Assembly (NCBI RefSeq): GCF_900215355.1
Contig: NZ_OBEA01000007.1
Span: forward strand, 62,001 to 126,000
Direction: 5' to 3'
Length of the DNA stretch: 64,000 nt
DNA from: Pseudooceanicola antarcticus
GTDB taxonomy: Bacteria > Pseudomonadota > Alphaproteobacteria > Rhodobacterales > Rhodobacteraceae
In this document: positions 44,625 to 64,000 of the stretch, piece by piece
Layout of the letters: each line of letters begins with the position of its first letter
How positions within the stretch are numbered: the stretch's first letter is position 1
Made by a program: the position numbers and the translations under genes
The notes under the pieces: model-generated
What the model was told of the DNA's origin: nothing
What the model saw: the letters and a program-made list of their open reading frames with translations, nothing else
Database searches by the model: none

Positions 44625-44666
44625 TTTGTAACTCCCTGTTTGGTCTTCATATTATGACGCGCCTTG

Positions 44667-45509: not shown

Positions 45510-45606
45510 GAGGGCCCTCCTTCAAGTGCCACCCGGTCGTGCATTGCGCCGGCGGATCGTGCCGGGGTGAGGCCCGGTGCCCGGTTGAACGAAGCTCTCT
45601 TCTCCA

Positions 45607-46524
45607 TCATGCCAGCCCCATGCGTTTCAGCACACCGCGCTCGACCGCACCGATGGTGGCGACGAGGCAGGCGGCAAGGATTGCCGTGGCGAAGAGCGCC
45701 GACCAGATCTGCACCGTCTGCCCGTAGTAGCTGCCGGAAAGCAGGCGGAAGCCCAGACCCTGGCCGGTGCCCGAGGGCAGCTCGCCCACGATCGTTCCGA
45801 CGAGGCTGGAGGCCACGCCGATCTTCAGCGAGGCGAAGAGATAGGGGGCCGAAGCGGGCAGCCGCAGCTTCCAGAAGCTCTGCGCCTTGGTCGCGCTCCA
45901 GGTCTTCACCAGGTCGAGGTCCATCGGAGAGGGGCTGCGCAGCCCCTTCACCATGCCCACGACCACGGGGAAGAACGACAGGTAGGCCGAGATCACGGCC
46001 TTGGGGATAAGCCCCTGCAGCCCAACGGAATTCAGCACCACGATGATCATCGGCGCAATGGCCAGGATCGGAATGGTCTGGCTGGCGATGGCCCAGGGCA
46101 TCACCGACATGTCCATGGCGCGGCTATGCACGATCCCCACGGCCAGCACGATGCCCATCCCGGCGCCGATGACGAAGCCCAGAAGCGTCGCCGAGAGCGT
46201 GACCCAGCCATGGAAGACAAGGCTGCGCTTCGAGGTGGGCTTGACCTCCATGGTGGATTTCCACAGCTCGGTCACCACCTGGTGCGGTGCCGGCAGACGC
46301 GGCTTGGCCTGCACCCAGGTGTCACTCCATTGCGCCGGGTTCTTCACCGAAAGCACCAGCGCCGACATGTCGCGGCGGGCCATCATCCCCTCGGGCGAGA
46401 CGATCTCTCCCTGCCGCTCGGCGGTCATCAGGGCGAACTTGATGTTCATCGGCACGCAGGCGGCATACCAGAAGGCCATGATGGTAGCGACAACAGTGAT
46501 GACTGGAATCAACACCTGTTTCAT
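45607..46524 (-). CDS. ABC transporter permease (SsuC/ThiX type), second of pair
   Basis: A permease of 305 residues from the ATG at 46524 (MKQVLIPVITVVAT); an in-frame GTG three codons upstream lies inside the GNAT gene. After helix 1 there is a long periplasmic insert (about residues 25-85), then the core with TLLGFVIGAGMGIVLAVGIV and the EAA loop TWSATKAQSFWKLRLPASAP. Its start overlaps the GNAT stop by four bases, showing operon coupling. Confidence 0.9.
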   Translation of the reverse strand: MKQVLIPVITVVATIMAFWYAACVPMNIKFALMTAERQGEIVSPEGMMARRDMSALVLSVKNPAQWSDTWVQAKPRLPAPHQVVTELWKSTMEVKPTSKRSLVFHGWVTLSATLLGFVIGAGMGIVLAVGIVHSRAMDMSVMPWAIASQTIPILAIAPMIIVVLNSVGLQGLIPKAVISAYLSFFPVVVGMVKGLRSPSPMDLDLVKTWSATKAQSFWKLRLPASAPYLFASLKIGVASSLVGTIVGELPSGTGQGLGFRLLSGSYYGQTVQIWSALFATAILAACLVATIGAVERGVLKRMGLA

Positions 46525-46946
46525 CGTTTCCACTCCATGCGCATTTCCATCACCAGTTCTGGCGGAACCGGCATCCGGCGTCCCGTCTCGACGAAACCTT
46601 CGCGGGCGTAGAAGCGCTGCGCGGCGTCATTGGGCACATGGGTATCAAGGCTGAGACTGTCCCGCCCCTCCTTGGCCTTGTCGAGAAAGGCCTTGCCCCA
46701 GCCCTGCCCGCGTTCGCGGCAGTAGAGCGCGCCGATATGGCCCGCTTCCGGATCGACCGACATATAGGCCTGCGCAGGCTGGCCGATCACCCAGATCTCG
46801 CGGTCGGAAAAGGCCGAGCGGATATGCCCTTCCAGTTCTTCGCGCGAGTGGATGCGGGGCATCCAGCCGGTTTCGTCGATCCAGTCGCTGGCAACGGCGG
46901 CACAGGCGGGGATGTCCGCCTCGGTGGCGCGGCGAAGGTCAGTCAT
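46521..46946 (-). CDS. GNAT-family N-acetyltransferase inside the pyrimidine transport operon
   Basis: The start MTDLRRATEADIPACAAVAS at 46946 overlaps the ATPase stop by eight bases and gives 141 residues; the longer frame upstream is inside the ATPase gene. The acetyl-CoA site is GALYCRERGQGWGKAFLDKA and the C-terminal NDAAQRFYAREGFVETGRRM is typical. Genes on both sides overlap it. Beta-alanine or beta-aminoisobutyrate, the pathway end products, are plausible acceptors, but that is inference. Confidence 0.85.
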   Translation of the reverse strand: MTDLRRATEADIPACAAVASDWIDETGWMPRIHSREELEGHIRSAFSDREIWVIGQPAQAYMSVDPEAGHIGALYCRERGQGWGKAFLDKAKEGRDSLSLDTHVPNDAAQRFYAREGFVETGRRMPVPPELVMEMRMEWKR

Positions 46947-47721
46947 AGGCATGGCCCGCCCGCAGCCCTTCCCGGACTCTATGCGCGATTTCAAGGAATT
47001 CAGGGCTGTCCCGGATGTCCAGCGGGCGCTCCTTGGGCAGCGGGCTTTCGATCACGTCGGTGATCCGTCCCGGCCGCGGAGACATCACGACGATCTTGGT
47101 CGAGAGGTACACCGCCTCGGGGATCGAATGGGTGACGAAGCCGATGGTCTTCTCGGTCCGCGCCCAGAGCTTCAGCAGCTCTTCGTTCAGGTGGTCGCGC
47201 ACGATTTCATCAAGCGCGCCAAAGGGTTCGTCCATCAGCAGGATATCGGCATCGAAAGCCAGCGCGCGGGCGATCGAGGCCCGCTGCTGCATGCCGCCCG
47301 AGAGCTGCCAGGGGAACTTCTTGCCGAAGCCGGCAAGATCCACCAGCTCCAGCACCTTTTCCACCTTCTCGGCCTGCTCGGCCTTGGAAAAGCCCATGAT
47401 TTCAAGCGGCAGCTTGATGTTGCCCGCGATGGTGCGCCAGGGATAGAGCCCCGCCGCCTGGAAGACATAGCCATAGGCGCGGGCCTTGCGGGCCTCCTCC
47501 GGGCTCATGCCGTTCACCGACAGGCTACCGCCAGTGGGCTCTTCCAGCGCCGCGATGCAGCGCAGGAAGGTGGTCTTGCCGCAGCCCGAGGGGCCGATGA
47601 AGCTGACGAAATCCCCCTTGGAGATCTGCAGGTTCACGTCGCGCAGTGCTTGCACCGGCCCGTCATTGGTCTGGAAGGTCAGATCGAGGTGTTTGGCCTC
47701 GATCACAGGGAGTTGCGTCAC
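46939..47721 (-). CDS. ABC transporter ATP-binding protein (SsuB/TauB/ThiZ type)
   Basis: A 260-residue ATPase with Walker A GPSGCGKTT (about residues 42-50), Q-loop YVFQAAGLYPW, signature LSGGMQQRASIARAL, Walker B LLMDEPFGALDE and the H-loop FVTHSIPEAVYLS. It powers the permease pair 44667-45509 and 45607-46524. It begins 10 bases after the dihydropyrimidinase stop and overlaps the GNAT start. Confidence 0.93.
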   Translation of the reverse strand: MTQLPVIEAKHLDLTFQTNDGPVQALRDVNLQISKGDFVSFIGPSGCGKTTFLRCIAALEEPTGGSLSVNGMSPEEARKARAYGYVFQAAGLYPWRTIAGNIKLPLEIMGFSKAEQAEKVEKVLELVDLAGFGKKFPWQLSGGMQQRASIARALAFDADILLMDEPFGALDEIVRDHLNEELLKLWARTEKTIGFVTHSIPEAVYLSTKIVVMSPRPGRITDVIESPLPKERPLDIRDSPEFLEIAHRVREGLRAGHAYD

Positions 47722-47731
47722 GTAGCTAACC

Positions 47732-49192
47732 TCAGATACCGGCCGGAATGTTCAGCGGATCGCGCTCGACCGAGCGCGGAGAGTTCAACTCTTTCCACTT
47801 AGAGAGGGCCGCATGGGCCGAGGGGAAGGCAGGACGCGGCACGAAACGGCCCCGGCCCGGCTGCGGCTGGGAGTTCTGCCCCCAGGCCCAGATGACCTCG
47901 CCGCGCGACAGGGTGTAACGCGCCTGGGCCTTCACCTCGTAGCCCTCGAAGACGTTGTAATCGAGGATCGAGTGATGGTTCGCCGCCGATATCGTCTTCG
48001 AGATCTTCGGATCCCAGACCACGATATCTGCATCCGCCCCCGGCACCAGCGCGCCTTTCTTGGGGTAGATGTTCAGGATCTTCGCAATGTTGGAGGAGGT
48101 CACCGCGACGAATTCCTCGGGCGTCAGGCGCCCGGTCTCGACACCGGCGGTCCAGAGCACCGCGAGACGCTCTTCCAGGCCGTTGGTCCCGTTGGGAATC
48201 TTGGTGAAGTCCTCGAGACCCATCTTCTTCTGCTCGGAGCTGAAGGCGGCGTGGTCGGTTGCCACCACCTGCAGGGAGCCCGACTGCAGACCGGCCCAGA
48301 GACCGTCCTGATGTTCCTTGCCGCGGAACGGCGGCGACATCACGCGACGCGCGGAATGCAGCCAGTCCTTCGAGAGATACTCGTCATCATCCAGCGTCAG
48401 GAATTGCGCCAGCGGTTCGCCATAGACGCGCATGCCCTTCTGGCGGGCCCGGCGGATGGCCTCATGCGCCTGCTCGCAGGAGACATGCACGATATAAAGC
48501 GGCACGCCGGCGGCATCGGCGATGGTGATGGCGCGGTTGGCGGCTTCGCCCTCGAACTCGGGCGGACGCGAGCGTGCGTGCCATTCCGGCCCCGTCTTGC
48601 CCTCGGAAAGGAACTTTTTCTGCATCAGGTCGACGAGGTCGCCGTTCTCGGCATGGACCATGGGCAGCGCGCCCAGCTCCTTGCAGCGGTTGAACGAGGC
48701 GAACATCTCGTCGTCCTCGACCATCAGCGCGCCCTTGTAGGCCATGAAATGCTTGAAGGAATTGACGCCAGCATCGACGGCATCCTTCATTTCCTCGAAG
48801 ATCAGCTCGTTCCAGCCGGTGATCGCCATGTGATAGCCGATGTCCGAGCAGATCTGCGGCGCCGACTTGCGGTGCCATTCCTGGATCGCGTTCTTGATCG
48901 AGCCATCCGCACCGGGCAGGCAGAAGTCGATCAGCATCGTGGTGCCGCCGCAGGCGGCCGCCCAGGTGCCGGTCTCGAAGGTCTCGGCGGCGGTGGTTCC
49001 CATGAAGGGCATTTCCAGGTGGGTATGCGGGTCGATACCGCCGGGGATCACGTAAGCCCCTTCGGCGTCAATATATTCATCGCCCTTCAGGTCCTCGCCG
49101 ATCTCCTTGATGGTCTCGCCCTCAATGGCGATATCGGCCTTCCACTGACGGTCTGCGGTCACCACGGTGCCGCCCTTGATCACCTTGATCAT
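47732..49192 (-). CDS. hydA: Dihydropyrimidinase (D-hydantoinase family)
   Basis: This enzyme opens the ring of 5,6-dihydrouracil/dihydrothymine to N-carbamoyl-beta-amino acids, step two of reductive pyrimidine degradation. The start MIKVIKGGTVVTADRQWKAD follows CAGGGAG and gives 486 residues. The binuclear metal site is visible: His56/His58 (DPHTH), the carboxylated Lys153 (AYKG), His180 (MVHAE), a His in VHVSCE, and Asp in ATDHAAF. It sits between the amidohydrolase gene and the transporter genes. Confidence 0.96.
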   Translation of the reverse strand: MIKVIKGGTVVTADRQWKADIAIEGETIKEIGEDLKGDEYIDAEGAYVIPGGIDPHTHLEMPFMGTTAAETFETGTWAAACGGTTMLIDFCLPGADGSIKNAIQEWHRKSAPQICSDIGYHMAITGWNELIFEEMKDAVDAGVNSFKHFMAYKGALMVEDDEMFASFNRCKELGALPMVHAENGDLVDLMQKKFLSEGKTGPEWHARSRPPEFEGEAANRAITIADAAGVPLYIVHVSCEQAHEAIRRARQKGMRVYGEPLAQFLTLDDDEYLSKDWLHSARRVMSPPFRGKEHQDGLWAGLQSGSLQVVATDHAAFSSEQKKMGLEDFTKIPNGTNGLEERLAVLWTAGVETGRLTPEEFVAVTSSNIAKILNIYPKKGALVPGADADIVVWDPKISKTISAANHHSILDYNVFEGYEVKAQARYTLSRGEVIWAWGQNSQPQPGRGRFVPRPAFPSAHAALSKWKELNSPRSVERDPLNIPAGI

Positions 49193-49289
49193 GTTAGTCT
49201 CCCTGTTCCATTGCCCCGTTTCCCTTTCGGAAATCTGTCGGGGGGTCCGCACCTTCAGGCGCGGGGGGCGGGGGCAGAGCCCCCTTTTG

Positions 49290-50540
49290 TCATTCCACGA
49301 TCTCAGCGGTTTCCAGCACCGCATGCAAGAGAACATCCGCCCCGGCGGTCGCCCATTCCTTGCTGATCTCTTCTGCCTCGTTGTGGCTGAGGCCATCCAC
49401 GCAGGGGCACATCACCATGGCCGTCGGCGCCACCTGGTTGATCCAGCAGGCATCATGCCCGGCGCCCGAGATGATGTCGCGGTGGCTGTAGCCCAGACGC
49501 TCCGAGGCGTCGCGCAGGCGGCCCACCAGGGTCTCGTCGAACTTCACCGGATCGAAGCCGCCGACCTTCTCGAATTCGACCGACAGGCCCATCTCGTCGC
49601 AGATCTCTTGCGCCCCCGCCTTCAGGCGGGCCTCCATGTCCTCAATCACCGACAGTTCGGGGCTGCGGAAGTCGACAGTGAAGACCACCTTGCCGGGGAT
49701 CACGTTGCGCGAGTTGGGGTAGACGTCGATATGACCCGCCGCGCCGACCGCGTGCGGGGCGTGCGACCAGGCGATCTCGTCCACCAGCTGCAGCACCTTG
49801 GCCATGCCCAGACCCGCGTTCTTGCGCATCGGCATCGGGGTCGAGCCGGTGTGGCTGTCCTTGCCGGTGATGGTCACCTGCGTCCAGCTCAGGCCCTGGC
49901 CATGGGTCACGATGCCCACGTCCTTGCCCTCGGCTTCCAGGATCGGGCCCTGCTCGATGTGCAGCTCGAACATGGCGTGCATCTTGCGTGCGCCCACGGG
50001 TTCATCACCTTCCCAGCCGATGCGCTTCAGCTCGTCGCCGAACTTCTTGCCTTCGGCATCGACGCGGTCCTTGGCCCATTCTTCCGTATGCACCCCGGCA
50101 AAGACGCCGGAAGAGAGCATGGCGGGGGCGTAGCGGGTGCCCTCTTCATTGGTCCAGTTGGTGACCACGATCGGGTGCTTGGTCTTCACGTCCAGGTCAT
50201 TCAGCGTCCGCACGACCTCGAGCGCGCCGAGCACACCCAGCACACCGTCATACTTGCCGCCCGTCGGCTGCGTATCCAGGTGGCTGCCCATGTAGACCGG
50301 CAGCGCCTCGGGATCGGTGCCGGGCCGCATGGCGAACATGTTGCCCATGGAGTCGAGACCCATCGAGCAGCCGGCGGCCTCACACCAGCTCTGGAACAGG
50401 GCGCGGCCTTCCGCATCGGCGTCGGTCAGGGTCTGGCGGTTGTTGCCACCGGCCACGCCGGGCCCGATCTGCGCCATCTCCATGAGGCTGTCCCACAGCC
50501 TCTCCCCGTTGATTTTAAGGTTTTCTCCGGGTGCGGCCAT
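49290..50540 (-). CDS. N-carbamoyl-beta-alanine amidohydrolase-like Zn-dependent hydrolase
   Basis: A member of the M20 family (allantoate/N-carbamoyl amino acid amidohydrolases), 416 residues from MAAPGENLKINGERLW (GGAGG site). Metal ligands are in GSHLDTQPTGGKYDGVLG, NEEGTRYAP, and HIEQGPILE; the C-terminal SGAGHDACWI carries the last His. Next to dihydropyrimidinase it should release beta-alanine, CO2 and ammonia from N-carbamoyl-beta-alanine. It is the first gene of the operon; a RutR-type palindrome lies 31 bases upstream of its start. Confidence 0.94.
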   Translation of the reverse strand: MAAPGENLKINGERLWDSLMEMAQIGPGVAGGNNRQTLTDADAEGRALFQSWCEAAGCSMGLDSMGNMFAMRPGTDPEALPVYMGSHLDTQPTGGKYDGVLGVLGALEVVRTLNDLDVKTKHPIVVTNWTNEEGTRYAPAMLSSGVFAGVHTEEWAKDRVDAEGKKFGDELKRIGWEGDEPVGARKMHAMFELHIEQGPILEAEGKDVGIVTHGQGLSWTQVTITGKDSHTGSTPMPMRKNAGLGMAKVLQLVDEIAWSHAPHAVGAAGHIDVYPNSRNVIPGKVVFTVDFRSPELSVIEDMEARLKAGAQEICDEMGLSVEFEKVGGFDPVKFDETLVGRLRDASERLGYSHRDIISGAGHDACWINQVAPTAMVMCPCVDGLSHNEAEEISKEWATAGADVLLHAVLETAEIVE

Positions 50541-50570
50541 GATCTTGCCTCCAAAGCTTGCTGCATTCCT

Positions 50571-50588
50571 TTTGACCTTTTGGTCAAA
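50571..50588. promoter_or_regulatory. RutR operator
   Basis: TTTGACC-TTTT-GGTCAAA is a perfect inverted repeat. The published RutR consensus is TTGACCA-N2-TGGTCAA; this site differs only at one of the two inner consensus positions. It lies between the divergent amidohydrolase gene and the RutR-like gene. Confidence 0.85.
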
Positions 50589-50785
50589 GCGGAGGCTAGC
50601 AGAGCCCTGTGACCAGTCAAGAAAACGCCATCCGCCAAAGGATCGAACAGAGCCGCCGCTGGCCGCTCTGCCTATTCGATCAGCGCTGGACATCTCTGTC
50701 CGCCCGGTCAAAAATCGACGCCCGGACAAGAAGTCCATGACAAGGGATAAAGGGGCGCCCCGCGCCCTGGGAGCAGAATCACCTG

Positions 50786-51400
50786 ATGACGAAGCCGGTC
50801 ACCCGCACAAGAATTCAGCGCAAGAACATCGCCCTGATCTCGGAGGCCGCCCTTTCGGTCTTTTCGACCTATGGTTTTCGCGGCTCGACCGTCGACCAGA
50901 TCGCCCGGGAAGCGAACCTGTCGAAACCGAACCTGCTCTATTACTTCCCGTCCAAGGAGGCGATCCACGGTCACCTGCTGTCAACCCTCATGGAAACCTG
51001 GCTGGCGCCGTTGCAGGACATGAAGGATGACGGCGAACCGCTGGAAGAGATCCTGACCTACATGCGGCGCAAACTGCAAATGAGCCGCGATCACCCCCGT
51101 GAAAGCCGCCTTTTCGCCAACGAGATTGTCCAGGGCGCGCCGCGCATCATCGAGATGCTGGAGACCGAGCTGAAGGACCTGGTGGACGAGAAGGCAAAGG
51201 TCATCGAAGGCTGGATGGACGACGGCAGGCTGGCCAAGTCCGACCCCTACCACCTGATCTTCTCGATCTGGTCGCTGACCCAGCACTACGCCGATTTCGA
51301 CGTGCAGGTCCGCGCTGTCCTGGGACCGGAAAACGATGACCCCTTCCCCGCCGCGGAACGCTACCTGACCACGCTCTTCACCCGGCTTCTGGCGCCCTAA
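50786..51400 (+). CDS. rutR: RutR-type TetR-family regulator of pyrimidine catabolism
   Basis: A 204-residue TetR regulator. The helix-turn-helix (GSTVDQIAREANLSKPNLLY, about residues 33-52) and the ligand domain with YYFPSKEAIHGHLLSTL and WSLTQHYADFDVQ match RutR, which senses uracil/thymine. It is divergent from the pyrimidine degradation operon, and a near-consensus RutR site lies between. Uracil binding would release repression. Its stop overlaps the convergent YigZ-like stop. Confidence 0.88.
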   Translation: MTKPVTRTRIQRKNIALISEAALSVFSTYGFRGSTVDQIAREANLSKPNLLYYFPSKEAIHGHLLSTLMETWLAPLQDMKDDGEPLEEILTYMRRKLQMSRDHPRESRLFANEIVQGAPRIIEMLETELKDLVDEKAKVIEGWMDDGRLAKSDPYHLIFSIWSLTQHYADFDVQVRAVLGPENDDPFPAAERYLTTLFTRLLAP

Positions 51401-53028: not shown

Positions 53029-55185
53029 CTATTTGTTATTCGACCCCAAACGTTCCACCACATTTTCGATCATCCGCATACCCGCATCCTGGCCGAGGGA
53101 CATGATGGATTCAGGGTGGAACTGAACCGCTGCAATGGGCAGGTCCCGGTGCTCGATCCCCATGACGATCCCGTCCGAAGAGCGCGCCGTGACACGGATT
53201 TCCGGCGGCAGGGTCTCCTCTGCTGCATACAGGGAGTGGTAGCGTCCGATGGTCACCTCCTCGCCCAGCCCGTCGAATACAATCCCCGGATCGGTGATCT
53301 TAATCCTGGAGGGCTTGCCATGCATTGGATCGTCCAACTGACGCAATTCAGCGCCAGAAAATTCACAAATGGATTGCAAGCCGAGACAGACGCCGAATAG
53401 CGCCATTCCGCGATCCAGAGATTTCCGGATCGTGTCCGCGGTCGAGAAATCCGACGGGCTGCCGGGGCCGGGAGAAAGCACAACAAGGTCCGGGGCGAAT
53501 TCGTCCAGAAGTTCCTCGGCGACCGGAGTCCGGGTGGTCATGACTTTCGCCCCGGTCTGGCGGAAATAATTCGCCAGGGTATGGACGAAGGAATCCTCGT
53601 GATCGACCAGAAGAATGCGCCGCCCGAGGCCGCGTTTCAGCCGGAAGTCATCGGAAGAGATGTCATTTTCTCCGTGATCGCCGCGAATGGCCGCGCGCAT
53701 TGCGCTGGCCTTCAATTCGGTCTCGGCCTCTTCCGCATCCGGGTCGCTGTCATTCAGCAATGTGGCCCCGGCGCGCACTTCCGCGACACCGTTCTTGATC
53801 CGGATGGTGCGCAGGGTAAGGCCGGTGTTCATGTCGCCGTTGAACTGCACGGCACCAACGGCCCCGCCATACCATTTGCGCGTCGACTTCTCGTGCTTCT
53901 CGATGAAACGCATGGCCCAGAGCTTGGGCGCGCCGGTCACCGTCACCGCCCAGGCGTGGGACAGGAAGGCGTCCATGCTGTCCATGCCCTCGCGCAGCCG
54001 ACCCTCGATATGGTCGACCGTGTGGATCAGCCGTGAATACATCTCGATCTGGCGGCGCCCGATGACGCGAACGGAGCCCGGCTCGCAGACGCGGCTCTTG
54101 TCGTTGCGGTCCACGTCCGAGCACATGGTCAGCTCGCTCTCGTCCTTCTTGGACTGCAGCAGCGCCAGGATCTGCTCGCTGTCCTCGATCGCATCGCGGC
54201 CGCGCTTGATGGTGCCCGAGATCGGGCAGGTCTCGACCCGGCGCCCCGTCACGCGCACGAACATCTCGGGGCTGGCGCCCACCAGGTATTCCTGCTCGCC
54301 CAGGTTCATGATGAAACCGAAGGGGGCGGGGTTAATCTTCTTCAACCGCTCGTAAATGGCCGAGGGGCTGTCCTTGCAGGGCTCGTAGAAGACCTGGCCG
54401 GGCACCACCTCGAAGAGGTCGCCACGGCGGAAGCTTTCCTTCGCATCGACCACCAGCTTGGCATATTCGCCGGGCACATGGTCGCCGCGCGGCAGATCCT
54501 CGGGGCCCTTGACGAAGGGCTCGGCGGGCGTGCCGCCGGCCAGCCCCTCGGTGCTGAGATCGCCGGCAGAAAACTCGTAGCGGTAACGCATCGTGGCGGT
54601 GGAATAGTGGTCGCTGACGATGATGTCATCGGCGAGGAAGAGCACGAGATCGCGTTGCTCTTCGGGACGTTCCAGCGTGAATTCAATGGGTTCAAACTGG
54701 AATGCCAGGTCGTACCCGAAGGCACCGTAGAGACCCAGGTGGCCGTCCTCATCGGTGAAGAACAGATCCACCAGCGCCCGCAGGACCGAGAAGACCGAAG
54801 GCGCACGGGAGCGCTCTTCTTCGCTGACCACACGGTCGGGGGCGCGGATCACCATGGCGATCTCGTCTTCGGCGATACGGGTGTCCGACAGGGCCTCCAG
54901 CCCGTCGAGCGCCGGCGCGATGATCTGCAGCAGGACCTTGCCGCGCCCGTTCAGCGCCTTGATCCGCATGTCGCGGCCCCGTGCCTCGACCAGGATGGGC
55001 GGCTCGGAAAAGCCGAAGTCCCAACGGGTATAGCGGCCCGGATATTCATAATTCGACGACAGAAGTACGCCATGGTGGGAATCGAGCCGCCGGGCCAGGG
55101 CCTCGGTATCCGTGGGATAGGTGCCGCGCATCTCGCGCCGGGTGACGTTTACGCCCCCCTTGGTTCGGAAGGTAAGGTCAGTCAT
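53029..55185 (-). CDS. trpE(G): Anthranilate synthase, fused component I and II
   Basis: The enzyme makes anthranilate from chorismate and glutamine, the first step of tryptophan synthesis. One 718-residue chain holds both subunits: the TrpE domain (about 1-510) with the chorismate-binding [32 protein letters not shown] and [16 protein letters not shown], then the TrpG class I glutaminase (about 520-718) with Cys in FGVCLGLQS and His/Glu in VQFHPES. The Rhizobium-type TrpE(G) has the same fusion. A Trp-rich leader ORF lies about 100 bases upstream (55284-55331), pointing to attenuation. Confidence 0.96.
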
Positions 55186-55545: not shown

Positions 55546-56568
55546 ATGACTGCCCCGCTTCCGCCGCTCCCCGAAGGTCCCCTCTCTGTCTGCGTCGTGG
55601 GCGCCGGCGCAATCGGCGGCACGATTGCCGCCCACCTGGCGGGCGCAGGTCCCGAGGCCGGGCTGGGAGAGGTCTCTGTCGTGGCGCGAGGCGCACATTT
55701 GCAGGCAATCCAGGCCCAGGGGCTGCGTTTGCAAACACCCGAGGGTTTGCAAAGCTACCGGGTCACCGCCACGGATGACCCCGGCAGCCTGCCGCCGCAG
55801 GACCTGGTGATCACCGCGCTCAAGGGCCACCAGGTGCCGCCCATGGCTGAGGCCCTGTCGCGGCTTCTGGCCCCGCACGGGCGCATTCTGCCCGTGGTGA
55901 ACGGGGTGCCCTGGTGGTACCCGATCTCGGATGGTCAGGGCGGTGTCAAGGGCGCCGAGGAGGTCGATCCGGGCGGTGTGCTCTGGGACAAGGTCGGCGC
56001 GGCGCGCGCCATCGGCTGCATCGCAGTGATGGGGGCCTCGGTGCCCGAACCGGGGCTGATCGACCTGGGCCTGCCCGGCTACCTCGACATCGGGCGCCTG
56101 CCCGGAGAGGACCGTGCGGATGTCGCCCGCGTGGCGGCGCTTCTCTCGGCGGCGGGACTGAAGATCCGACAGACCGAGCCCTTCCAGAACGCCCTCTTTT
56201 CAAAGCTTTACGCCAACTGCGGCTTCAACTCCGTCTGCGCATTGGCGCGGGCTCCGATGAACCGGATGCTGGCCGACCCGGTGCTGGCGGAGCTGACCGC
56301 CGGGATCATGGCAGAGGTCGGAGAGATCGCCGCCGCCGAGCACGCCAGGCTGCTGGAGGACCCCGCGCAGCGCATCGAGCGCGCCAGGGGCGGGGCAGCC
56401 TTCAAGCCCTCGACGCTGCAGGATCTGGAAAAGGGCCGCCCGATGGAGATCGAGCCGATCTTCGGCGCCACGCTCTCGGTCGCGCGCAGCCATGCGATCG
56501 AGGCACCGAAGCTGTCCTTGGTCACCGCCATGCTGCGCTCCATCGATCGCGAGATGGGCGAGACCTAG
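55546..56568 (+). CDS. Ketopantoate reductase family protein (PanE-like)
   Basis: The 340-residue product starts MTAPLPPLPEGPLSVCVVGA with the Rossmann GAGAIGG (about residues 19-25), VVNGVPWWY (nicotinamide-side loop, about 117-125), and the C-terminal ApbA domain with LYANCGFNSVCALARAPM and PSTLQDLEKGRPMEIEPIFG. It reduces a 2-keto compound with NADPH; ketopantoate is the family substrate, but the NGVPWWYP-type subgroup may use another. It is divergent from the trp leader. Confidence 0.87.
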   Translation: MTAPLPPLPEGPLSVCVVGAGAIGGTIAAHLAGAGPEAGLGEVSVVARGAHLQAIQAQGLRLQTPEGLQSYRVTATDDPGSLPPQDLVITALKGHQVPPMAEALSRLLAPHGRILPVVNGVPWWYPISDGQGGVKGAEEVDPGGVLWDKVGAARAIGCIAVMGASVPEPGLIDLGLPGYLDIGRLPGEDRADVARVAALLSAAGLKIRQTEPFQNALFSKLYANCGFNSVCALARAPMNRMLADPVLAELTAGIMAEVGEIAAAEHARLLEDPAQRIERARGGAAFKPSTLQDLEKGRPMEIEPIFGATLSVARSHAIEAPKLSLVTAMLRSIDREMGET

Positions 56569-56587
56569 GCGAGCAGTGCCGTCGGGG

Positions 56588-56623
56588 CGCCTCCGGCGGG
56601 AGTATTTTCAGCCTGGTGATGAG
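56588..56623. repeat. Single arm of the foldback repeat
   Basis: CGCCTCCGGCGGGAGTATTT then TCAGCCTGGTGATGAG is identical in its core to the right arm of the copy at 24398-24552 in reverse. No matching partner arm follows, so this is a lone or truncated copy. TTTGCAAA-type words follow at about 56633-56664. Confidence 0.75.
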
Positions 56624-56715
56624 ATTGGGTGATTTGCAAACTGGCCGCTGGCGCTTGCAAAATTGACCCGAAGCTGCGCGCGGCTTTGCAGGCGCGCGCA
56701 GCGGGGTACGCAAAG

Positions 56716-57297
56716 TCAGCGCAGCCCGTCGAACTTGCTGATCTGGTCGGCAGCGAGGCCACCGAGGCGCGAATGGATGCGCGGGCCCTTGGCCATGGTC
56801 AGCACGTAGAGCAGCTCATCGGCGCGTGGGCCTTCGGGCAGGCCGACTTCCATGGCATCGAAGTGCGAGCGCACATAGGCCGCGTTGGTATGACCCATGG
56901 GCACATCAAGACGGGTGCCGGGGCCGCCCTGCTTCTTCGACGAGGGCACGATGGCCAGGGATTCGCCCAGCACTTCGCGCATCGAGTAGCCGCCCGCCAC
57001 GTGCCAGAGCGCGGCATGTTCAAGCTCTCCGGCCTCGCCGGCGATACCGCCCTTGCCGTAGGAGTCGATACCCTCGGCGCCGCCCATGGCGTCAACGAGC
57101 TTCTGCGCCATCAGCAGGCCGACCGGCTTCAGGTCTTCCAGCGCCTGGGTCAGATCCGCCTGGTAGACACCCGCGTAGGGGTTCTTGACCAGTGCCAGGA
57201 CCGCGCCGCGCAGCCGCGGGGTCTCGGCCTGGGGACCTCCGTCGTGGTAGATCTCTTCCAGGATGATTTGCGTCTTGCGCAGTGTAAATTCGGCCAT
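56716..57297 (-). CDS. AA_synth (DUF1185) family protein
   Basis: A 193-residue member of the 'amino acid synthesis' family (PF06684): AEFTLRKTQIILEEIYHDGG at the start, LVKNPYAGVYQADLTQALED, GKGGIAGEAGELEHAALWHV and PMGHTNAAYVRSHFDAMEV. The biochemical role is not established. GGAGGGGCCG precedes the ATG. It is the last gene after the Hnr-like and UPF0280 genes and probably acts in the same pathway. Confidence 0.87.
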   Translation of the reverse strand: MAEFTLRKTQIILEEIYHDGGPQAETPRLRGAVLALVKNPYAGVYQADLTQALEDLKPVGLLMAQKLVDAMGGAEGIDSYGKGGIAGEAGELEHAALWHVAGGYSMREVLGESLAIVPSSKKQGGPGTRLDVPMGHTNAAYVRSHFDAMEVGLPEGPRADELLYVLTMAKGPRIHSRLGGLAADQISKFDGLR

Positions 57298-57354
57298 CGG
57301 CCCCTCCGTTCATTGTCCCGCATGGGCTCTTGCCCGATGCGCCGTCCCAAAGTC

Positions 57355-58209
57355 TCAGCCCGCGACGGGGCCCTTCCCCGGCGACCCTGCCCGAGGCTGG
57401 CCGCCAGCCGCAAGCGCCGGATCGGGCGCCTGGGGTGCCACCATGCGCCCCTGCCCTGCCAGCCAGAGCTGAGCGGCACCGATCAGGCCCCGCGCCAGCA
57501 GCATCTCGGCGTGTGTCGCTCCGCGTTCCAGCGCCTCCAGCGCCTCCTCGACCGAGATCTCTCCCAGCCCGGTGGTGACCAGACGTGAGCCCAGATCGCT
57601 GTCTGGGGAAAGCTCGCAGGCCGGCTGTCGCTCGACCGCGGGGTGGCCCGGCAGATCGACCATGTTGGCGATCATCGTCGCCGCCGCATCCGCCTGGGCC
57701 GCGCCGCTGGCGAGAACCGTCACCGTATCGGCGATGCCCAGCGAATGGCTGCGTCCGCCACGCCCAGAGGTGGCACAGCCGCGGAAGGGCATCTCTGCCG
57801 GTACCTCGATGGTGCCACCGGGCATGGCCAGGCGGAAGGGCTCGTCACCGGGACGCCAGGCGATATCGCCGCCGTTGTTGACCCATTGCTTGCCCTCGGG
57901 CACGGCCGCGCCCATCACGGCAAGGATCTCTTCCGCGACCGAGCCCGCGACAGCGGCCATGGGGGTGATGAACTGCGGCGCGTGGGGGGCGGTGGCGGCG
58001 GCCATGCGACGGCCCACCGGGCTTTGCGGCTGGCCGCCCTCGCGGCGCAGCTCGGCAAGTTCGCCCGTGAGCTCGAGCAAGAGCCCCTCGAAACGCCGAC
58101 AGGCGGCATCATATGCCGCCTTCCGCTCCGTCTCGGCATAGACGATCAGGTCAATGGGGCCGTCGTGCAGGTGCAGGCGCACCCCGTCAGGCATCATCGC
58201 CGCCTGCAT
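57355..58209 (-). CDS. UPF0280 family protein (ApbE-like fold)
   Basis: A 284-residue UPF0280 protein: GRRMAAATAPHAPQFITPMA and AAVAGSVAEEILAVM near the start, VNNGGDIAW in the centre, CATSGRGGRSHSLGIADTVTVLAS in the ApbE-like core. The fold is related to the flavin transferase ApbE, but the activity is unknown. Its ATG overlaps the Hnr-like stop by one base, so the two are co-translated. This raises the possibility that it acts on that protein; see findings. Confidence 0.85.
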   Translation of the reverse strand: MQAAMMPDGVRLHLHDGPIDLIVYAETERKAAYDAACRRFEGLLLELTGELAELRREGGQPQSPVGRRMAAATAPHAPQFITPMAAVAGSVAEEILAVMGAAVPEGKQWVNNGGDIAWRPGDEPFRLAMPGGTIEVPAEMPFRGCATSGRGGRSHSLGIADTVTVLASGAAQADAAATMIANMVDLPGHPAVERQPACELSPDSDLGSRLVTTGLGEISVEEALEALERGATHAEMLLARGLIGAAQLWLAGQGRMVAPQAPDPALAAGGQPRAGSPGKGPVAG

Positions 58210-59699
58210 CAGCAGGCCTTCTTGGCCGTTCCCGGAAAGGGGGTCACATTGCCGCCCTCCGGCTTGTCTCGGCCGAGCGCCCGGAACGGGTTGTGATAGG
58301 CCCCGCCGGTCTCGAGCACATCGCGCAGCGGCCGGATCGAGGCATCGTGACCGCCGAGGCCGACGTAGAGATCGCGCGGCATGGTGAACTCCAGCGGTGC
58401 CACCAGCGCTGGCGTCGGCACGTAGCCGAAGCTCTGGTCGGGCATGTCCAGCACGTTGACCATCACCGTGATGCCGCCACCGGGCCAGAGGAAGGCCTCG
58501 GCACCGCCAAGGGTCACCTTGGCCTCGCCCGCCTGGACGGCGCGGGTCAGGCGCACAGGGTTCCTGGTCACGCCCGACCTTAGCGAGCCCCCGGCCCCGG
58601 CGCAGAAAAGCACGGTGCAAAGCGCGGGCTCGCAGTTTTCCTCGATCAGACGCACCGAAGCCTGAAGCGGCTCGGGCATCGTGGCGGGCTGAGGCACCAG
58701 GTCCTCGTCCAGCACGAAATAGCCCGCGTGTTCGCCGGTGGTCGAGACCATGAGCAGGGTCAGGCCGGGCTTCGCGCCCTTCTTTTCCTGCCAGTCGCCA
58801 AGGATGGTCAGCGGATCCTCGATATCGGTGCCGCCCCAGCCAAGGCCCGGCTCGGCCACCTGGAAGTAGCGTCCGGGGGTGGAGCGGCGGCCCTTGATGC
58901 GGATGCCGGTATCGGCCCAGCCGATCTCCTTGCCCGCCTGGTGTTCCGAGACGACGCCGGTGATGTGGTCATCGACCACGACCACCTCGTCCACGTGGCC
59001 CTGCCACTGGGTGGCGAACATGCCGATGGTGGCCGATCCGCAGCCGACCCGCATCCGGGTCTCGGCCTTGCCGTCGACGATGGGGGCCTGACCCGCCTGG
59101 ACGACCACCTTTGAGCCGCCGTCGATCTCGAGCTCGACCGCCTCACCGTTGCAGAGCGCCATCAGGCTGTCGCAGGTGGCGCGGCCCTCGGGCTTGGAGC
59201 CGCCCGTCAGGTGGTCCACCCCGCCCAGCGACAACATATGGGAGCCGTATTCGCCGGTGGTCACATGGCCGATCGCCTCGCCTCTGGCGCGGACCACGGC
59301 GGTCTCGTCGCCCAGGTGGCGGTCGGTGTCGATCTTCACCTTGACGCCGCAGTAGGAATAGATGGCCTCGGTCACCACGGTGACCGTATCCACGCCCTCG
59401 ACCTCGCGCGAGACGATGAAGGGGGCAGGCTTGAAGTCCGGATAGGTCGTCCCCGCGCCAACGCCCGAGACGAAAAGCTCACGTCCCGGCACCATGGCGC
59501 CGTCCCAGTCCTCGGCGGCGGTCAGGAAGGGGCGCACCTCTTCCCCGGCCGCCAGCCGCCGGTCCAGCACCGTGACCGGGTCACAGCGGACGATCTTGCC
59601 GTTTTCATTGGCATATCTGTCACATGCGCCCGTGCGACCCTCGGCCACATAGCACATGACCGGGCAGGCATCGCATCTGATCTTGTCTACCGGCGCCAT
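58209..59699 (-). CDS. 6-hydroxynicotinate reductase-like iron-sulfur protein
   Basis: The start MAPVDKIRCDACPVMCYVAE at 59699 has an AGAGGA site at good spacing; an ATG three codons upstream is too close to it. The 496-residue product has an N-terminal Cys cluster (residues 9, 12, 16, 26) suited to an Fe-S cluster and resembles Hnr of nicotinate fermenters, which reduces 6-hydroxynicotinate. The segment VGCGSATIG (around Thr224) resembles a covalent-flavin site. It leads the Hnr-UPF0280-AA_synth operon and is divergent from a MarR gene. The true substrate is uncertain. Confidence 0.75.
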   Translation of the reverse strand: MAPVDKIRCDACPVMCYVAEGRTGACDRYANENGKIVRCDPVTVLDRRLAAGEEVRPFLTAAEDWDGAMVPGRELFVSGVGAGTTYPDFKPAPFIVSREVEGVDTVTVVTEAIYSYCGVKVKIDTDRHLGDETAVVRARGEAIGHVTTGEYGSHMLSLGGVDHLTGGSKPEGRATCDSLMALCNGEAVELEIDGGSKVVVQAGQAPIVDGKAETRMRVGCGSATIGMFATQWQGHVDEVVVVDDHITGVVSEHQAGKEIGWADTGIRIKGRRSTPGRYFQVAEPGLGWGGTDIEDPLTILGDWQEKKGAKPGLTLLMVSTTGEHAGYFVLDEDLVPQPATMPEPLQASVRLIEENCEPALCTVLFCAGAGGSLRSGVTRNPVRLTRAVQAGEAKVTLGGAEAFLWPGGGITVMVNVLDMPDQSFGYVPTPALVAPLEFTMPRDLYVGLGGHDASIRPLRDVLETGGAYHNPFRALGRDKPEGGNVTPFPGTAKKAC

Positions 59700-59760
59700 G
59701 AAAGCCATCCTCTTGGTGTTGCCCTCCGCTTCCTTGAAGCTTGGGCAGCAGGTGAAGCGG

Positions 59761-59840
59761 TACGTTACGTGGCTGTCACGTTACGTCATTTTCGTTAGTA
59801 CACAAACAGTATTGACGGAATCAGGGCGCGAATGTCAATA
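59761..59840. promoter_or_regulatory. MarR-type control region with repeats
   Basis: TACGTTACGTGGCTGTCACG then TTACGTCA (59761-59788) holds two CGTTACGT copies and ACGTG-GCTGT-CACGT symmetry. Further along, TATTGAC (59810-59816) and GTCAATA (59834-59840) are perfect inverted repeats 17 bases apart, about 46 bases before the MarR ATG. The region separates the divergent Hnr-like and MarR genes. Confidence 0.55.
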
Positions 59841-59886
59841 GCTTCTCCAGTCGCCCGATGATTGAAACCACGAGAGATTATTTTCG

Positions 59887-60324
59887 ATGCACTATGACTT
59901 CGCGGATGCCCGCGCCGCCAGCTACCGTCTTGATGAGCAGGTAGGTTTCCTGCTCCGGCGGGCCAGCCAGCGCCATCTTGCGATCTTTGCGCAGCGCCTT
60001 GGTGCCCTGACCGCAACGCAATTTGCTGCACTGGCGAAGCTCTGCGAGCTGGGCCCGACTTCGCAGAACGCCCTGGGACGGGCAACCGCCATGGATGCGG
60101 CCACGATCAAGGGGGTGGCAGACCGCCTGCGCGCCCGTGGTCTGGTCGAAGCCAAACCCGATACGGACGACCGGCGGCGGCACTACCTGATTGCGACGGA
60201 TGAAGGCCGGGCGCTTTACGAAAACGCAGCCATCGCGGCGGTGGATATCTCGGCGGAAACGCTGGCTCCCCTGACGGCGACGGAACGCGAGACTTTCCTC
60301 AACCTGCTGAGCAAGCTTGGTTGA
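59887..60324 (+). CDS. MarR-family transcriptional regulator
   Basis: A 145-residue MarR protein with the winged helix: TATQFAALAKLCELGPTSQN, LGRATAMDAATIKGVADRLR (recognition helix, about residues 63-82) and KPDTDDRRRHYLIATDEGRA (wing, about 90-109). It is divergent from the Hnr-like gene and likely represses that operon until its aromatic or N-heterocyclic substrate is present, as many MarR proteins do. The ATG at 59887 is chosen; the gene ends in the palindrome TTGATCACTGATCAA. Confidence 0.9.
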   Translation: MHYDFADARAASYRLDEQVGFLLRRASQRHLAIFAQRLGALTATQFAALAKLCELGPTSQNALGRATAMDAATIKGVADRLRARGLVEAKPDTDDRRRHYLIATDEGRALYENAAIAAVDISAETLAPLTATERETFLNLLSKLG

Positions 60325-60389
60325 TCACTGATCAAGACAAATAGACCGGCGTCGCTCCAGCGGCCCGGATGTGAATTTCCCGAGGTGTG

Positions 60390-60677
60390 TGTCGGGCCTC
60401 CCCTGAACTTATTTCCGGGGTCAAAGAGGCCGTGACGGGGTCCGTCCGGAGCATTTCTGCTCCGGACGGCTACTCAAGACAGGATACCGGGGGCCTCCCC
60501 GGCAAAGACCCTTCCGGCGCCCGTGGCACCGGGAGCGAAGAAGTAGTTGGTTGCAGCCAGGGCCGTCCCCGAGCCAGGGCTGAATGGTTTTGTTCAGGGG
60601 TGTGCCGGCGCGGAGGCTCGCGCCGGATGTTAACGAGTGCTGAGAGGGGCCGGGTCTTTGATCCGGCCCCTTTCTTT
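60390..60677 (+). ncRNA. Possible structured non-coding RNA or long structured 3' UTR
   Basis: Between the MarR stop and livF, about 290 bases contain a series of stems: GGCCTC/GAGGCC (60395-60400, 60426-60431), a perfect 11-base stem (60442-60452 with 60459-60469, ATTTCT loop), CCGGGG/CCCCGG (60487-60492, 60497-60502), CCGGCGCG/CGCGCCGG (60605-60612, 60619-60626), and a terminator with U-tract on the plus strand. No coding pattern is seen. I could not match it to 6S, SRP, RNase P, tmRNA or a known riboswitch. Confidence 0.4.
60646..60677 (+). terminator. Plus-strand terminator before livF
   Basis: GGGGCCGG (60646-60653) pairs perfectly with CCGGCCCC (60663-60670), followed by TTTCTTT. On the minus strand there is no U-tract, so it serves the plus-strand MarR/structured transcript, not livF. 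Confidence 0.88.
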
Positions 60678-60720
60678 GTCCTCGCATGCGGGCCCGCGCA
60701 GCAGCCCCGCGCATGAAGGT

Positions 60721-61414
<694 letters not shown>

Positions 61415-61428
<14 letters not shown>

Positions 61429-62161
61429 CAGCGGTCTCCGTTCCAAGGTAGGCGGCCTGCACCGCCGGATTGGCGTGGATCTCGGCGGCCGTACCATGGG
61501 CCAGGATCTCGCCGAAGTTCAGCACGGTGATCTCGTCGGCCAGCTCCATGACCACCGACATGTTGTGCTCGATCAGCAGGATGGTCGTCTCTGAGGAAAG
61601 CTCGCGGATCAGCGCCTTGAAGGCGGCGATCTCGCTTTCGGCCAGGCCCTGTGTCGGCTCGTCGAGGATCAGCAGACGCGGCATCGAGGCCAGACCCATG
61701 GCGATCTCCAGCAGGCGCTGATGCCCGTAAGAGAGATCGCCCGCCACCTCTTCCGCACGTTCGCCAAGTCCCACCCGGCCCAGGGCGCGGGCCACGGCCT
61801 CATCCACGGCGGCGCGGTTGCGGCCAAGGCGGCGGCGGGCGGCCAGCGCCACGTTCTCGTGGCACGACAGCCGTGCGAAGACGCTGGTGATCTGGAAGGT
61901 ATAGCCCATGCCCTGCGCGACCCGTCGGTGCGCGGGCATCTCGGTCACGTTCTTTCCGTCGAACCAGATCGCGCCATCGGTGGGCTCCAGCCGACCGATC
62001 AGCATGGACACGAAGGTGGTCTTGCCCGCCCCGTTAGGTCCGATCAGCGCATGGACGCGGTTCTTCTTCAGGGTGAAGTTGATGTCGTTGTTGGCCCGGA
62101 GCCCGTCAAAGCTCTTGCCCAGGGCCTCGGTGGTCAGGATCACGTCGCTTGCATGTCTCAT
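61415..62161 (-). CDS. livG: Branched-chain-type ABC transporter ATP-binding protein
   Basis: The 248-residue LivG ATPase starts MRHASDVILTTEALGKSFDG (an open frame upstream overlaps livM and is not used). Walker A is GPNGAGKTT, LivG-type FQITSVFARLSCHENVALAA follows, the signature is LSYGHQRLLEIAMGLA and Walker B LLILDEPTQGLAE. It overlaps livM by four bases and livF by 14, so all are one operon. Confidence 0.93.
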
Positions 62162-63096
62162 GGCAGGTCCTTCCACAGGCGGCGGCGGATCTCGCCCACG
62201 ATGCCCTGCGGCGCGAAGAGCGTCAGCAGCACCAGGGCCACGCCCGCGATCAGCATGTAGGCCTCGGTCACCTCGGTGGCGAGGTCGATCAGGTAGAACA
62301 TGAAGAGCGTGCCGATAAAGGGGCCAAGCACTGTGCCCGCCCCGCCCAGAAGCACCCATAGAAGCGCGAAGATCGAATATTGCACGCCCGCGAAGCTGGC
62401 ACCCACATAGCCGAAGAGCCCGGCATAGGCCGCCCCCGCCGCGCCCGAGATCGTGCCCGAGATGACCAGCGAGGCCAGCTTGCGCCGGCCGGTGTCATAG
62501 CCCAGCAGACGCGCGCGCTCTTCGTTTTCGCGCAGGGCCACGAGGACGCGGCCGAAAGGCTGGCGCACCAGCCAGAGCGAGATCATCAGCGCGCCCGAGA
62601 AGAGGATCAGCGCGACGATGTAGCGGGTGCTCTCGTCCGACAGGTCCCAGGGACCGATGGCACGCATGTCGCTGGGAACGACGAAGCCATCGTCTCCGCG
62701 GGTGAACTCCGAGAAGTAGAGGATGATCAGGTAGGCCGCCTGCGCGAACATCAGTGTCACGATCATGAAGCTGACGTCCTGGGTGCGCAGGGCCAGCAGG
62801 CCCACGACCAGCGACAGGAGCGCCGCGCAACCGACCCCGATGAGCCAAGCGGGCAGCGCGGGAATGGCGAAGTGGTAGGCGGCCAGCCCCATGCCGTACA
62901 TGCCGGCACCAAAGAACATGGCATGGCCAAGGGACAGAAGGCCGGTGTAGCCGAAGGCGATATTGTAGCCGATCGCATAGACCGCCAGCACCATCACGCG
63001 GGCGAAGATACCGTGGTGGTAGGTGGGCAGCAGGAAATGCAGCGCAAAGAGCACGGCGATGAGGCCGAGGTGGGTAATCAGGTCCTTGCGGGTCAT
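62158..63096 (-). CDS. livM: Branched-chain-type ABC transporter permease
   Basis: A 312-residue permease with about nine hydrophobic segments and the LivM signatures GYNIAFGYTGLLSLGHAMFF (about residues 43-62), ALRENEERARLLGYDTGRRK (about 187-206, the ATPase-contact loop) and LFMFYLIDLATEV near the end. It overlaps livG and livH by four bases each. Confidence 0.93.
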   Translation of the reverse strand: MTRKDLITHLGLIAVLFALHFLLPTYHHGIFARVMVLAVYAIGYNIAFGYTGLLSLGHAMFFGAGMYGMGLAAYHFAIPALPAWLIGVGCAALLSLVVGLLALRTQDVSFMIVTLMFAQAAYLIILYFSEFTRGDDGFVVPSDMRAIGPWDLSDESTRYIVALILFSGALMISLWLVRQPFGRVLVALRENEERARLLGYDTGRRKLASLVISGTISGAAGAAYAGLFGYVGASFAGVQYSIFALLWVLLGGAGTVLGPFIGTLFMFYLIDLATEVTEAYMLIAGVALVLLTLFAPQGIVGEIRRRLWKDLP

Positions 63097-64000
63097 CGGC
63101 TCTTCACTCCGAAGAGGCCCTGGGGCCGGAAGACCAGCACCAAGGCGACGGCCAGGGTGGCGATGATCTTGGCCAGCGTGGGCGTGAAGAAGACCGAGAT
63201 GATGCCGTCGGACATGCCGATGATCACCGCGGCGACCACGGTGCCCGCAAGGCTGCCGAGGCCGCCGATGATCACCACGATGAACGACAGCAGCAGCGCA
63301 TCGCCGCCCATCAGGTAGTGGGCCTGCTGGATCGGCACGATGAGCACGCCGGCGAGGGCCGCCAGGGCCGCTCCCGCACCGAAGACGATGGCGTAGACAC
63401 GTTCAACCGGGATGCCGAAGGCGGTGGCCATCTCGCCGTCAAGCTGGGTGGCGCGCATGATCAGACCGGCACGAGACCGGGTCATGAAGAGACGCAACGC
63501 AAAGAGCAGCACCACCGCAGCCACGATGACGAAGAGCTTGTAGCTGGTGGTCGACAGCCCCCAGGGGAAGTAGATCTGGAAGCCCTCTTCCCCGAACTCG
63601 AACCAGGGCAGCGCGATGCGGCTGTTGAAGGGCGCGATGACCGGCTTGGCATCCGGGCCATAACCCATGAGGGAGGCCTGCTGGATGATGTAGAGCACAC
63701 CGATGGTGGCGACGATGACCCGCTCGGGGTCGTAGTCCAACCGTTTCAGGATTGTGATATCGGCGGCGGCGGCGATGGTGCCCACGATCAGCGGGGCCAG
63801 CACGGCGGCGGCGATGAAATTGACGGCAGCGCCTCCGCCCAGGCCGGCCATGAACTGGGTCACGACCCAGGCCATCACGGCGCCCAGCATGTAGAACTCG
63901 CCATGGGCCACATTGACCACGCGCATCACCCCGAACACGAGGCTGAGGCCGCTGGCCATCAGCGCGAGGACAGCCGCCAGCACGGCGCCCTCCAGCATGG
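63093..64000 (-). CDS. livH: Branched-chain-type ABC transporter permease (N-terminus at window edge)
   Basis: A LivH permease of which 301 residues are seen from an ATG at 63998, two bases inside the window edge. The visible N-terminus MLEGAVLAAVLALMASGLSL already lies in the first helix (LivH usually has a further 10-20 residues before it), so the true start is probably outside. Signatures are FGVMRVVNVAHGEFYMLGAV and MRATQLDGEMATAFGIPVER. The binding protein gene expected upstream is not in the window. Confidence 0.9.
   Translation of the reverse strand, partial: MLEGAVLAAVLALMASGLSLVFGVMRVVNVAHGEFYMLGAVMAWVVTQFMAGLGGGAAVNFIAAAVLAPLIVGTIAAAADITILKRLDYDPERVIVATIGVLYIIQQASLMGYGPDAKPVIAPFNSRIALPWFEFGEEGFQIYFPWGLSTTSYKLFVIVAAVVLLFALRLFMTRSRAGLIMRATQLDGEMATAFGIPVERVYAIVFGAGAALAALAGVLIVPIQQAHYLMGGDALLLSFIVVIIGGLGSLAGTVVAAVIIGMSDGIISVFFTPTLAKIIATLAVALVLVFRPQGLFGVKSR

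Follow-up and report, generated by a model that had tools for sequence, protein, structure and literature searches.

The reductive route of nicotinate catabolism, found in Eubacterium barkeri, was later reported in the aerobe Azorhizobium caulinodans, again via 1,4,5,6-tetrahydro-6-oxonicotinate (PMC3511419, in excerpt). The cluster was drawn in 2012; the Fig. 4 legend places it in Azorhizobium, Bradyrhizobium and Rhodopseudomonas, and the excerpt describes an SG-6C homologue 42% identical to E. barkeri 6-hydroxynicotinate reductase (Hnr), whose gene cluster is shared by Azorhizobium and other bacteria. The route was therefore already known in alphaproteobacteria. The locus described here lies in a 64,000 nt stretch of Pseudooceanicola antarcticus DNA (contig NZ_OBEA01000007.1, positions 62,001 to 126,000), referred to as the window and numbered from its first letter. 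It is a minus-strand operon encoding, in order, an Hnr-like protein, a UPF0280 protein and an AA_synth protein, divergent from a MarR-family gene. An earlier note on this DNA had suggested a reductive N-heterocycle route not yet described for this group. Reductive breakdown is well supported by the relation to Hnr and by the neighbours in other loci; the claim of novelty for the group falls with the report from A. caulinodans. The pathway itself is known, and what is new is a variant in gene content and a strict, so far unexplained partner gene.

The operon is likely to supply the ring-reducing part of a cluster for pyridine-carboxylate catabolism like those of E. barkeri and Azorhizobium, with nicotinate (vitamin B3) or a close relative, most likely nicotinate itself, as substrate, HyuAB standing in for enamidase and UPF0280 acting as maturation partner of Hnr. 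A Liv-type ATP-binding cassette (ABC) importer would take up the substrate, and MarR would de-repress the operon. A molybdenum hydroxylase, here probably a NicAB-type enzyme encoded at G000:C16:118372-122225, would make 6-hydroxynicotinate, and Hnr would reduce the pyridone ring to 1,4,5,6-tetrahydro-6-oxonicotinate. HyuAB, an ATP-dependent pair of the hydantoinase/oxoprolinase family, would open the lactam instead of enamidase. UPF0280, with a predicted ApbE fold, would serve specifically in the maturation of Hnr, perhaps by positioning the flavin or bonding it to the enzyme, and AA_synth may be an accessory protein. The data themselves give gene order, family membership, co-occurrence, the mutual exclusivity of alternative enzymes and folds as predicted models; we infer the substrate, each reaction and the maturation role. 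The E. barkeri system of nicotinate dehydrogenase, Hnr and enamidase has an Hnr homologue here, whereas HyuAB would replace the enamidase and the hydroxylase would lie outside the operon. In the Azorhizobium/Bradyrhizobiaceae cluster, steps one to three are all encoded together (PMC3511419, in excerpt), whereas here the operon covers neither step one nor step three, and step three is assigned to a different type of enzyme.

The three operon reading frames are intact. Base 58209 is common to the Hnr stop codon and the UPF0280 ATG, a one-base overlap, and 57 bases separate UPF0280 from AA_synth. The tightly spaced operon and its divergent MarR gene, together spanning 56716-60324, and an importer some 400 bases beyond were all correctly described in the earlier note; the livF stop at 60721 lies 396 bp past MarR. 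The resemblance of the lead protein to 6-hydroxynicotinate reductase, also claimed there, is borne out by 43% identity to proteins from Oscillospiraceae (L087) and Oscillibacter (L088) loci, where the enamidase is 75% identical to PDB 2vun. In an alignment of 34 Hnr rows the window protein is 42-46% identical to L087-L092 and 57-67% identical to 27 other rows. On 17 of 26 plasmid records the matching gene already bears the annotation 6-hydroxynicotinate reductase. At E 0.001 the window protein falls into no family of Pfam or NCBIfam.

Among the 34 rows, the cysteines of an N-terminal CxxCxxxC-x9-C motif (C12, C15, C19 and C29) are nearly invariant, and C223, C359 and several glycine-rich stretches are invariant. 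These cysteines could ligate iron-sulfur (Fe-S) clusters, and Hnr is probably an Fe-S flavoenzyme; the E. barkeri enzyme reportedly carries a covalent flavin and Fe-S clusters. The Hnr proteins of L087 (1547) and L092 (4591) have an extra N-terminal CxxCxxxCP stretch that the window protein lacks, and two members of the alignment show weak Fer4 matches. In G028 (C1:2969811-2971258, L070), Hnr is split across two reading frames, a frameshift or a broken gene. A CGSAT sequence at 223-227 was considered as an ApbE-type flavinylation site; it is unlikely to be one because Ala replaces Thr in several rows. The predicted Hnr model (mean predicted local distance difference test score, pLDDT, 82.6) has no clear match among solved PDB structures, the best being a GcvT C-terminal barrel at Z 4.9 over 64 residues, which does not amount to a new fold. 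With the limit set at E 5, Pfam GCV_T_C is found in 29 of the 34, the strongest match having E 4.8e-4. Kinship of Hnr with DUF39, which would unite both partners of UPF0280, was also considered as a conjecture and drew no support from Pfam, which gave no HcyBio match among the 34 members at the same limit, or from the comparison of the model with the PDB.

Hnr and UPF0280 are close to an obligate pair. In profile searches of 240 genomes from the window's class, one and the same set of 38 has both and the other 202 have neither, one weak Hnr row (G097, E 6.3e-4, 67 residues) being dropped (Fisher p 4e-45, a statistic that ignores relatedness). For 36 of these genomes, the matched stretches share contig and strand and are 2-197 bp apart; for the remaining two, the chosen matches lie on different contigs. 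Across the phylum, they again share an identical set of genomes (32 of 398), and two further UPF0280 rows are short matches of 32 and 42 residues (E 4.0e-5 and 1.3e-5). UPF0280 is also present in 49 of the 50 Hnr loci within the enamidase scan described below. Among individual loci, L148 has both genes in one cluster but not adjacent, L154 has UPF0280 and no Hnr within the stretch examined, and L069 and L072 end at or just past Hnr, L072 with a UPF0280 fragment. This near-exceptionless pairing, with one of two helper genes of the route that had been unexplained, is a new element. No title or abstract opening on the pair was found in literature coverage that excluded most subscription papers, and a search on 6-hydroxynicotinate reductase/UPF0280 turned up no paper with UPF0280.

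The UPF0280 protein scores 302.2 bits against NCBIfam NF003322 (curated cut-off 290; the queries were of 286 aa, two residues upstream of the ATG included) and matches the solved Desulfovibrio protein 2o34. Its predicted model (mean pLDDT 92.2) aligns with 2o34 at Z 20.3 and with ApbE flavin transferases (PF02424) at Z 13.8-15.4 (root-mean-square deviation 2.8-3.7, 192-207 residues aligned); the next structural matches are far lower, at 7.8. Of 31 UPF0280 members, 22 match Pfam ApbE at E values of 5 or less, the lowest being 1.4e-5, and a profile alignment (96.1% probability, 92 columns) keeps the GGD, ATSG and ADxxAT motifs. The family differs from ApbE in missing the SHxIDPxTG loop with the ApbE histidine, and is not filed as ApbE. 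Because the partner is obligate and ApbE-like, it is proposed that UPF0280 matures Hnr, through the handling of either flavin or sulfur.

It is quite possible, if short of probable, that UPF0280 handles sulfur or Fe-S for Hnr and not flavin; such a role has been suggested for COG2122/MA1715, acting with DUF39 to make homocysteine. Genetic evidence from Desulfovibrio connects COG2122 with DUF39, and in Methanosarcina the protein has a link to the assimilation of sulfide (PMC5764234, PMC12068725, both in excerpt), and the conserved cysteine quartet and two invariant cysteines of Hnr, together with the missing ApbE loop, fit such a role. However, the ApbE fold and its retained motifs point towards flavin, the invariant or nearly invariant columns of UPF0280 include no cysteine, and the genome of P. 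antarcticus lacks DUF39 (HcyBio, PF01837, 0/1, with 3 of 14 controls positive). The system of COG2122/UPF0280, DUF39 and NIL/ferredoxin in homocysteine synthesis (PMC5764234, in excerpt) is alike in tying the family to one particular enzyme and differs in the partner, which here is Hnr.

Gene neighbourhoods were mapped by tblastn for the window, 35 of the 37 other Hnr genomes of the class, five of 26 plasmid records, 19 family or genus loci and 80 enamidase loci. Genes for a Mo-hydroxylase, for MarR, for a Liv importer and for either enamidase or HyuAB are frequent neighbours of Hnr relatives in other bacteria. The recurrent set consists of MarR, an FAD subunit with a fused 2Fe-2S/Mo-hydroxylase or else NicAB, Hnr and UPF0280, with a ring-opening gene in most clusters; recurrent extras are one or two AA_synth genes (many), the Liv importer (many) and a ferredoxin-NADP reductase (some). 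The three operon families do co-occur in other genomes; their failure to do so, which the earlier note had named as the outcome that would tell against it, was not seen. In some clusters, the enamidase-like neighbour matches 2vun at E 7e-109.

The 80 enamidase loci are the best 80 of 304 in a scan of genomes, 45-75% identical to the E. barkeri enamidase, with E. barkeri itself outside those 80; Hnr is present in 50 and UPF0280 in 50. The top five include Oscillospiraceae, Oscillibacter, Bacillota and Clostridiales Family XIII bins. Loci L087-L091, from presumed anaerobes with enamidases 60-75% identical to 2vun, carry Hnr and, as in the window, UPF0280 and AA_synth.

Enamidase and HyuA were not found together. 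At ≥38% identity to the query, 59 of 110 Hnr loci have enamidase, 25 have HyuA, 26 have neither in the stretch examined and none has both. Since the 50 enamidase-scan loci have enamidase by choice, the unbiased count is of 60 loci: nine with enamidase, 25 with HyuA, 26 with neither and none with both. A HyuA relative at 31% (L150) falls under the threshold, and L034 and L124, identical in Hnr, may represent a single species entered twice. An Hnr tree of 98 rows requires no fewer than 10 switches of the ring-opening label and no fewer than five of the hydroxylase label; the tree is a quick one, with 25 of 94 inner branches weak and a program warning of long branches among outgroup rows. Such switching of the ring-opening label is expected if enamidase and HyuAB act on one intermediate. 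P. antarcticus itself carries HyuAB just beyond the window. No title or abstract opening on HyuAB in the nicotinate route was found within the same literature coverage.

Clusters of the HyuAB type might instead apply the same chemistry to a different pyridine carboxylate, such as picolinate, homarine or trigonelline, leaving nicotinate to the enamidase type. The HyuAB family acts on hydantoins and lactams; some clusters have a VanA-type Rieske oxygenase that could demethylate, and enamidase is missing from P. antarcticus. A conserved homarine pathway of environmental bacteria has also been published (known by title, as cited in PMC13390433). This explanation is nevertheless considered unlikely: the two types are interleaved on the quick Hnr tree, they have hydroxylase, MarR and importer types in common, and each includes loci where NicAB takes the place of the fused hydroxylase (L053 and L186 with HyuAB, L055 with enamidase).

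A comparable exchange affects the hydroxylase. Over 109 loci, 59 have the fused Mo-hydroxylase, 17 have NicAB, 33 have neither and none has both. The best match to the fused enzyme elsewhere in the P. antarcticus genome is 29% identical. The NicAB-like pair of this genome is 50 and 48% identical to a Neorhizobium pair annotated nicA/nicB, and its NicB candidate has Mo-cofactor and cytochrome c domains. Hnr occurs in 16 of 22 genomes of the genus, and 15 operons, that of P. antarcticus included, were examined: eight without hydroxylase genes and seven with. A full-length NicB orthologue is present in all eight genomes without an operon hydroxylase and in none of the seven with one (Fisher p 1.6e-4); in the other seven genomes of the former set, NicB is 64-88% identical to that of P. 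antarcticus. G242, outside the 15 operons, has NicB and an Hnr split over contigs. Nicotinate hydroxylation in this lineage is probably carried out by a NicAB-type enzyme encoded outside the operon.

The gene content of the operon could alternatively mark it as a remnant, in which the hydroxylase has gone, enamidase is lacking and Hnr no longer serves a full pathway. The FADM and MOH genes are indeed absent in the window lineage, and the genome has no enamidase. However, the three frames are intact, Hnr is 80-92% identical in seven sister genomes of the same type (one, G623, with a TGA inside the matched stretch), and HyuAB and a NicAB candidate are present in the genome, all of which makes decay very improbable.

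A number of observations weigh against a functional nicotinate cluster with UPF0280 as maturation partner. The operon has no hydroxylase gene, and the NicB correspondence may reflect a single replacement event because the eight hydroxylase-less genomes form one clade; G250 has NicB (63%) without Hnr. There is no enamidase ortholog in the P. antarcticus genome (97% complete), where one 65-codon match at E 1.5e-4 was found, and HyuAB is a putative lactam-opening pair. Hnr was assigned by comparison with proteins of enamidase-bearing clusters as stand-ins for E. barkeri Hnr. As to the pairing, the UPF0280 co-occurrence profile consists of 31 rows, 30 of them with Hnr in the stretch examined (the exception being L154); remote relatives unlinked to Hnr could be missed because the profile was built from Hnr-linked members, although it does recover 2o34 at E 7e-19. 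L103 has an Hnr fragment and no UPF0280 in the following 5.5 kb. Finally, the window UPF0280 protein has no Pfam ApbE match at E up to 5, and in the profile alignment there is a gap at the SHxIDPxTG loop and the N-terminal half of ApbE is unaligned.

AA_synth is the loosest of the three operon families. The window protein matches PF06684 at E 4.1e-63 (212.4 bits, gathering cut-off 27) and the solved DUF1185 proteins 3byq and 2qtp. The family is above cut-off in 49 of 240 class genomes, 34 with Hnr and 15 without, and so occurs somewhere in 34 of the 38 Hnr genomes. The AAS2 type is found in 57 of the best 80 of 304 enamidase loci and in 49 of the 50 Hnr loci among them, and the AAS type in seven of 16 HyuAB loci of the class set. 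With this distribution, the idea of AA_synth as a deaminase needed by HyuAB clusters fails as a simple rule. Branched-chain amino-acid ABC transport genes lie in the neighbourhood of SPO0826 (PMC2954203, in excerpt). A second AA_synth gene of P. antarcticus (G000:C12:75425-78283, L201), 40% identical to AAS2, stands with alpha/beta hydrolase-like and aldehyde dehydrogenase-like frames. This gene set is reminiscent of trigonelline genes. TgnF is a homologue of the DUF1185-like protein HcdD (PMC7913881, in excerpt).

The divergent region contains a repeat, ACGTTACGT, at 59762 and 59778 and an inverted repeat, TATTGAC-17-GTCAATA, at 59810-59840. Seven sister intergenic regions of the genus retain, in part or in full, a TTCGTT-GTACACAAA box and a TGTCAA element, and the repeats in this region are a putative operator. 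A scan of 56500-61000 found no sigma-70 type promoter. A strong terminator-like stem-loop lies at 60642-60674 on the plus strand, between MarR and the convergent liv genes; the scanned region has eight terminator-like sites against 2.0 in shuffles. The features of the locus are collected in Table 1.

Table 1. Features of the Hnr operon, the neighbouring liv genes and the genes continuing beyond the window
Feature	Position	Strand	Remarks
AA_synth (PF06684, DUF1185), 193 aa	56716..57297	-	Relative of BB2672 (3byq) and SPO0826 (2qtp)
UPF0280 (COG2122), 284 aa from ATG at 58209	57355..58209	-	Predicted fold of the ApbE flavin transferases; candidate maturation factor for Hnr
Hnr-like 6-hydroxynicotinate reductase, 499 aa	58209..59708	-	N-terminal CxxCxxxC-x9-C motif (C12, C15, C19, C29)
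Divergent promoter region, 178 bp, putative operator	59709..59886	.	Between Hnr and MarR
MarR-family regulator, 145 aa	59887..60324	+	Relative near Hnr in many other loci
livF-type ATPase	60721..61497	-	Open frame; true start probably inside frame
livG-type ATPase	61415..62359	-	Open frame; true start probably inside frame
livM-type permease	62158..63096	-	
livH-type permease	63093..63998	-	ATG at 63998; frame open to 70 bases past window end
livK, membrane protein, HyuA, HyuB (beyond window)	G000:C14:126183-133097		Next after the liv genes in the same contig
HyuA	G000:C14:129227-131278		Pfam Hydantoinase_A
HyuB	G000:C14:131364-133097		Pfam Hydantoinase_B

A membrane protein of about 450-490 aa is found near livK in L034, L035 and L043, and the P. 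antarcticus frame after livK (G000:C14:127685-129046) looks like it by eye. Elsewhere in the window, 47732-51400 encodes an amidohydrolase (Pfam Amidohydro_1, dihydropyrimidinase-like by eye), a carbamoylase/allantoate amidohydrolase-type enzyme and a divergent RutR-like TetR regulator that scores under the RutR cut-off; ABC importer-like frames lie beside these genes at 43632-47721. The region resembles a cluster for the reductive degradation of pyrimidines and lies within a few kilobases of the pyridine module. A fused anthranilate synthase, with a chorismate-binding domain and a glutamine amidotransferase, is encoded at 53029-55185.

A broader proposal may be put forward tentatively, as possible but on balance doubtful. 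UPF0280 would represent maturases that have the ApbE fold but not its histidine loop, and that install or hold a cofactor of Hnr, flavin or some other, by a non-ApbE mechanism; the same family would serve DUF39 enzymes in anaerobes. HyuAB clusters would be a branch of reductive pyridine breakdown that depends on ATP, is common among proteobacteria and has not been described before. The reaction assigned to Hnr abolishes the aromaticity of a pyridone ring, and the UPF0280/COG2122 family with which it is paired is also needed for homocysteine synthesis in anaerobes; the strict partnership makes the function of this family directly testable in another host and another pathway. The exchanges of enamidase and HyuAB, and of the hydroxylases, suggest one ring-breakdown route rebuilt from interchangeable parts.

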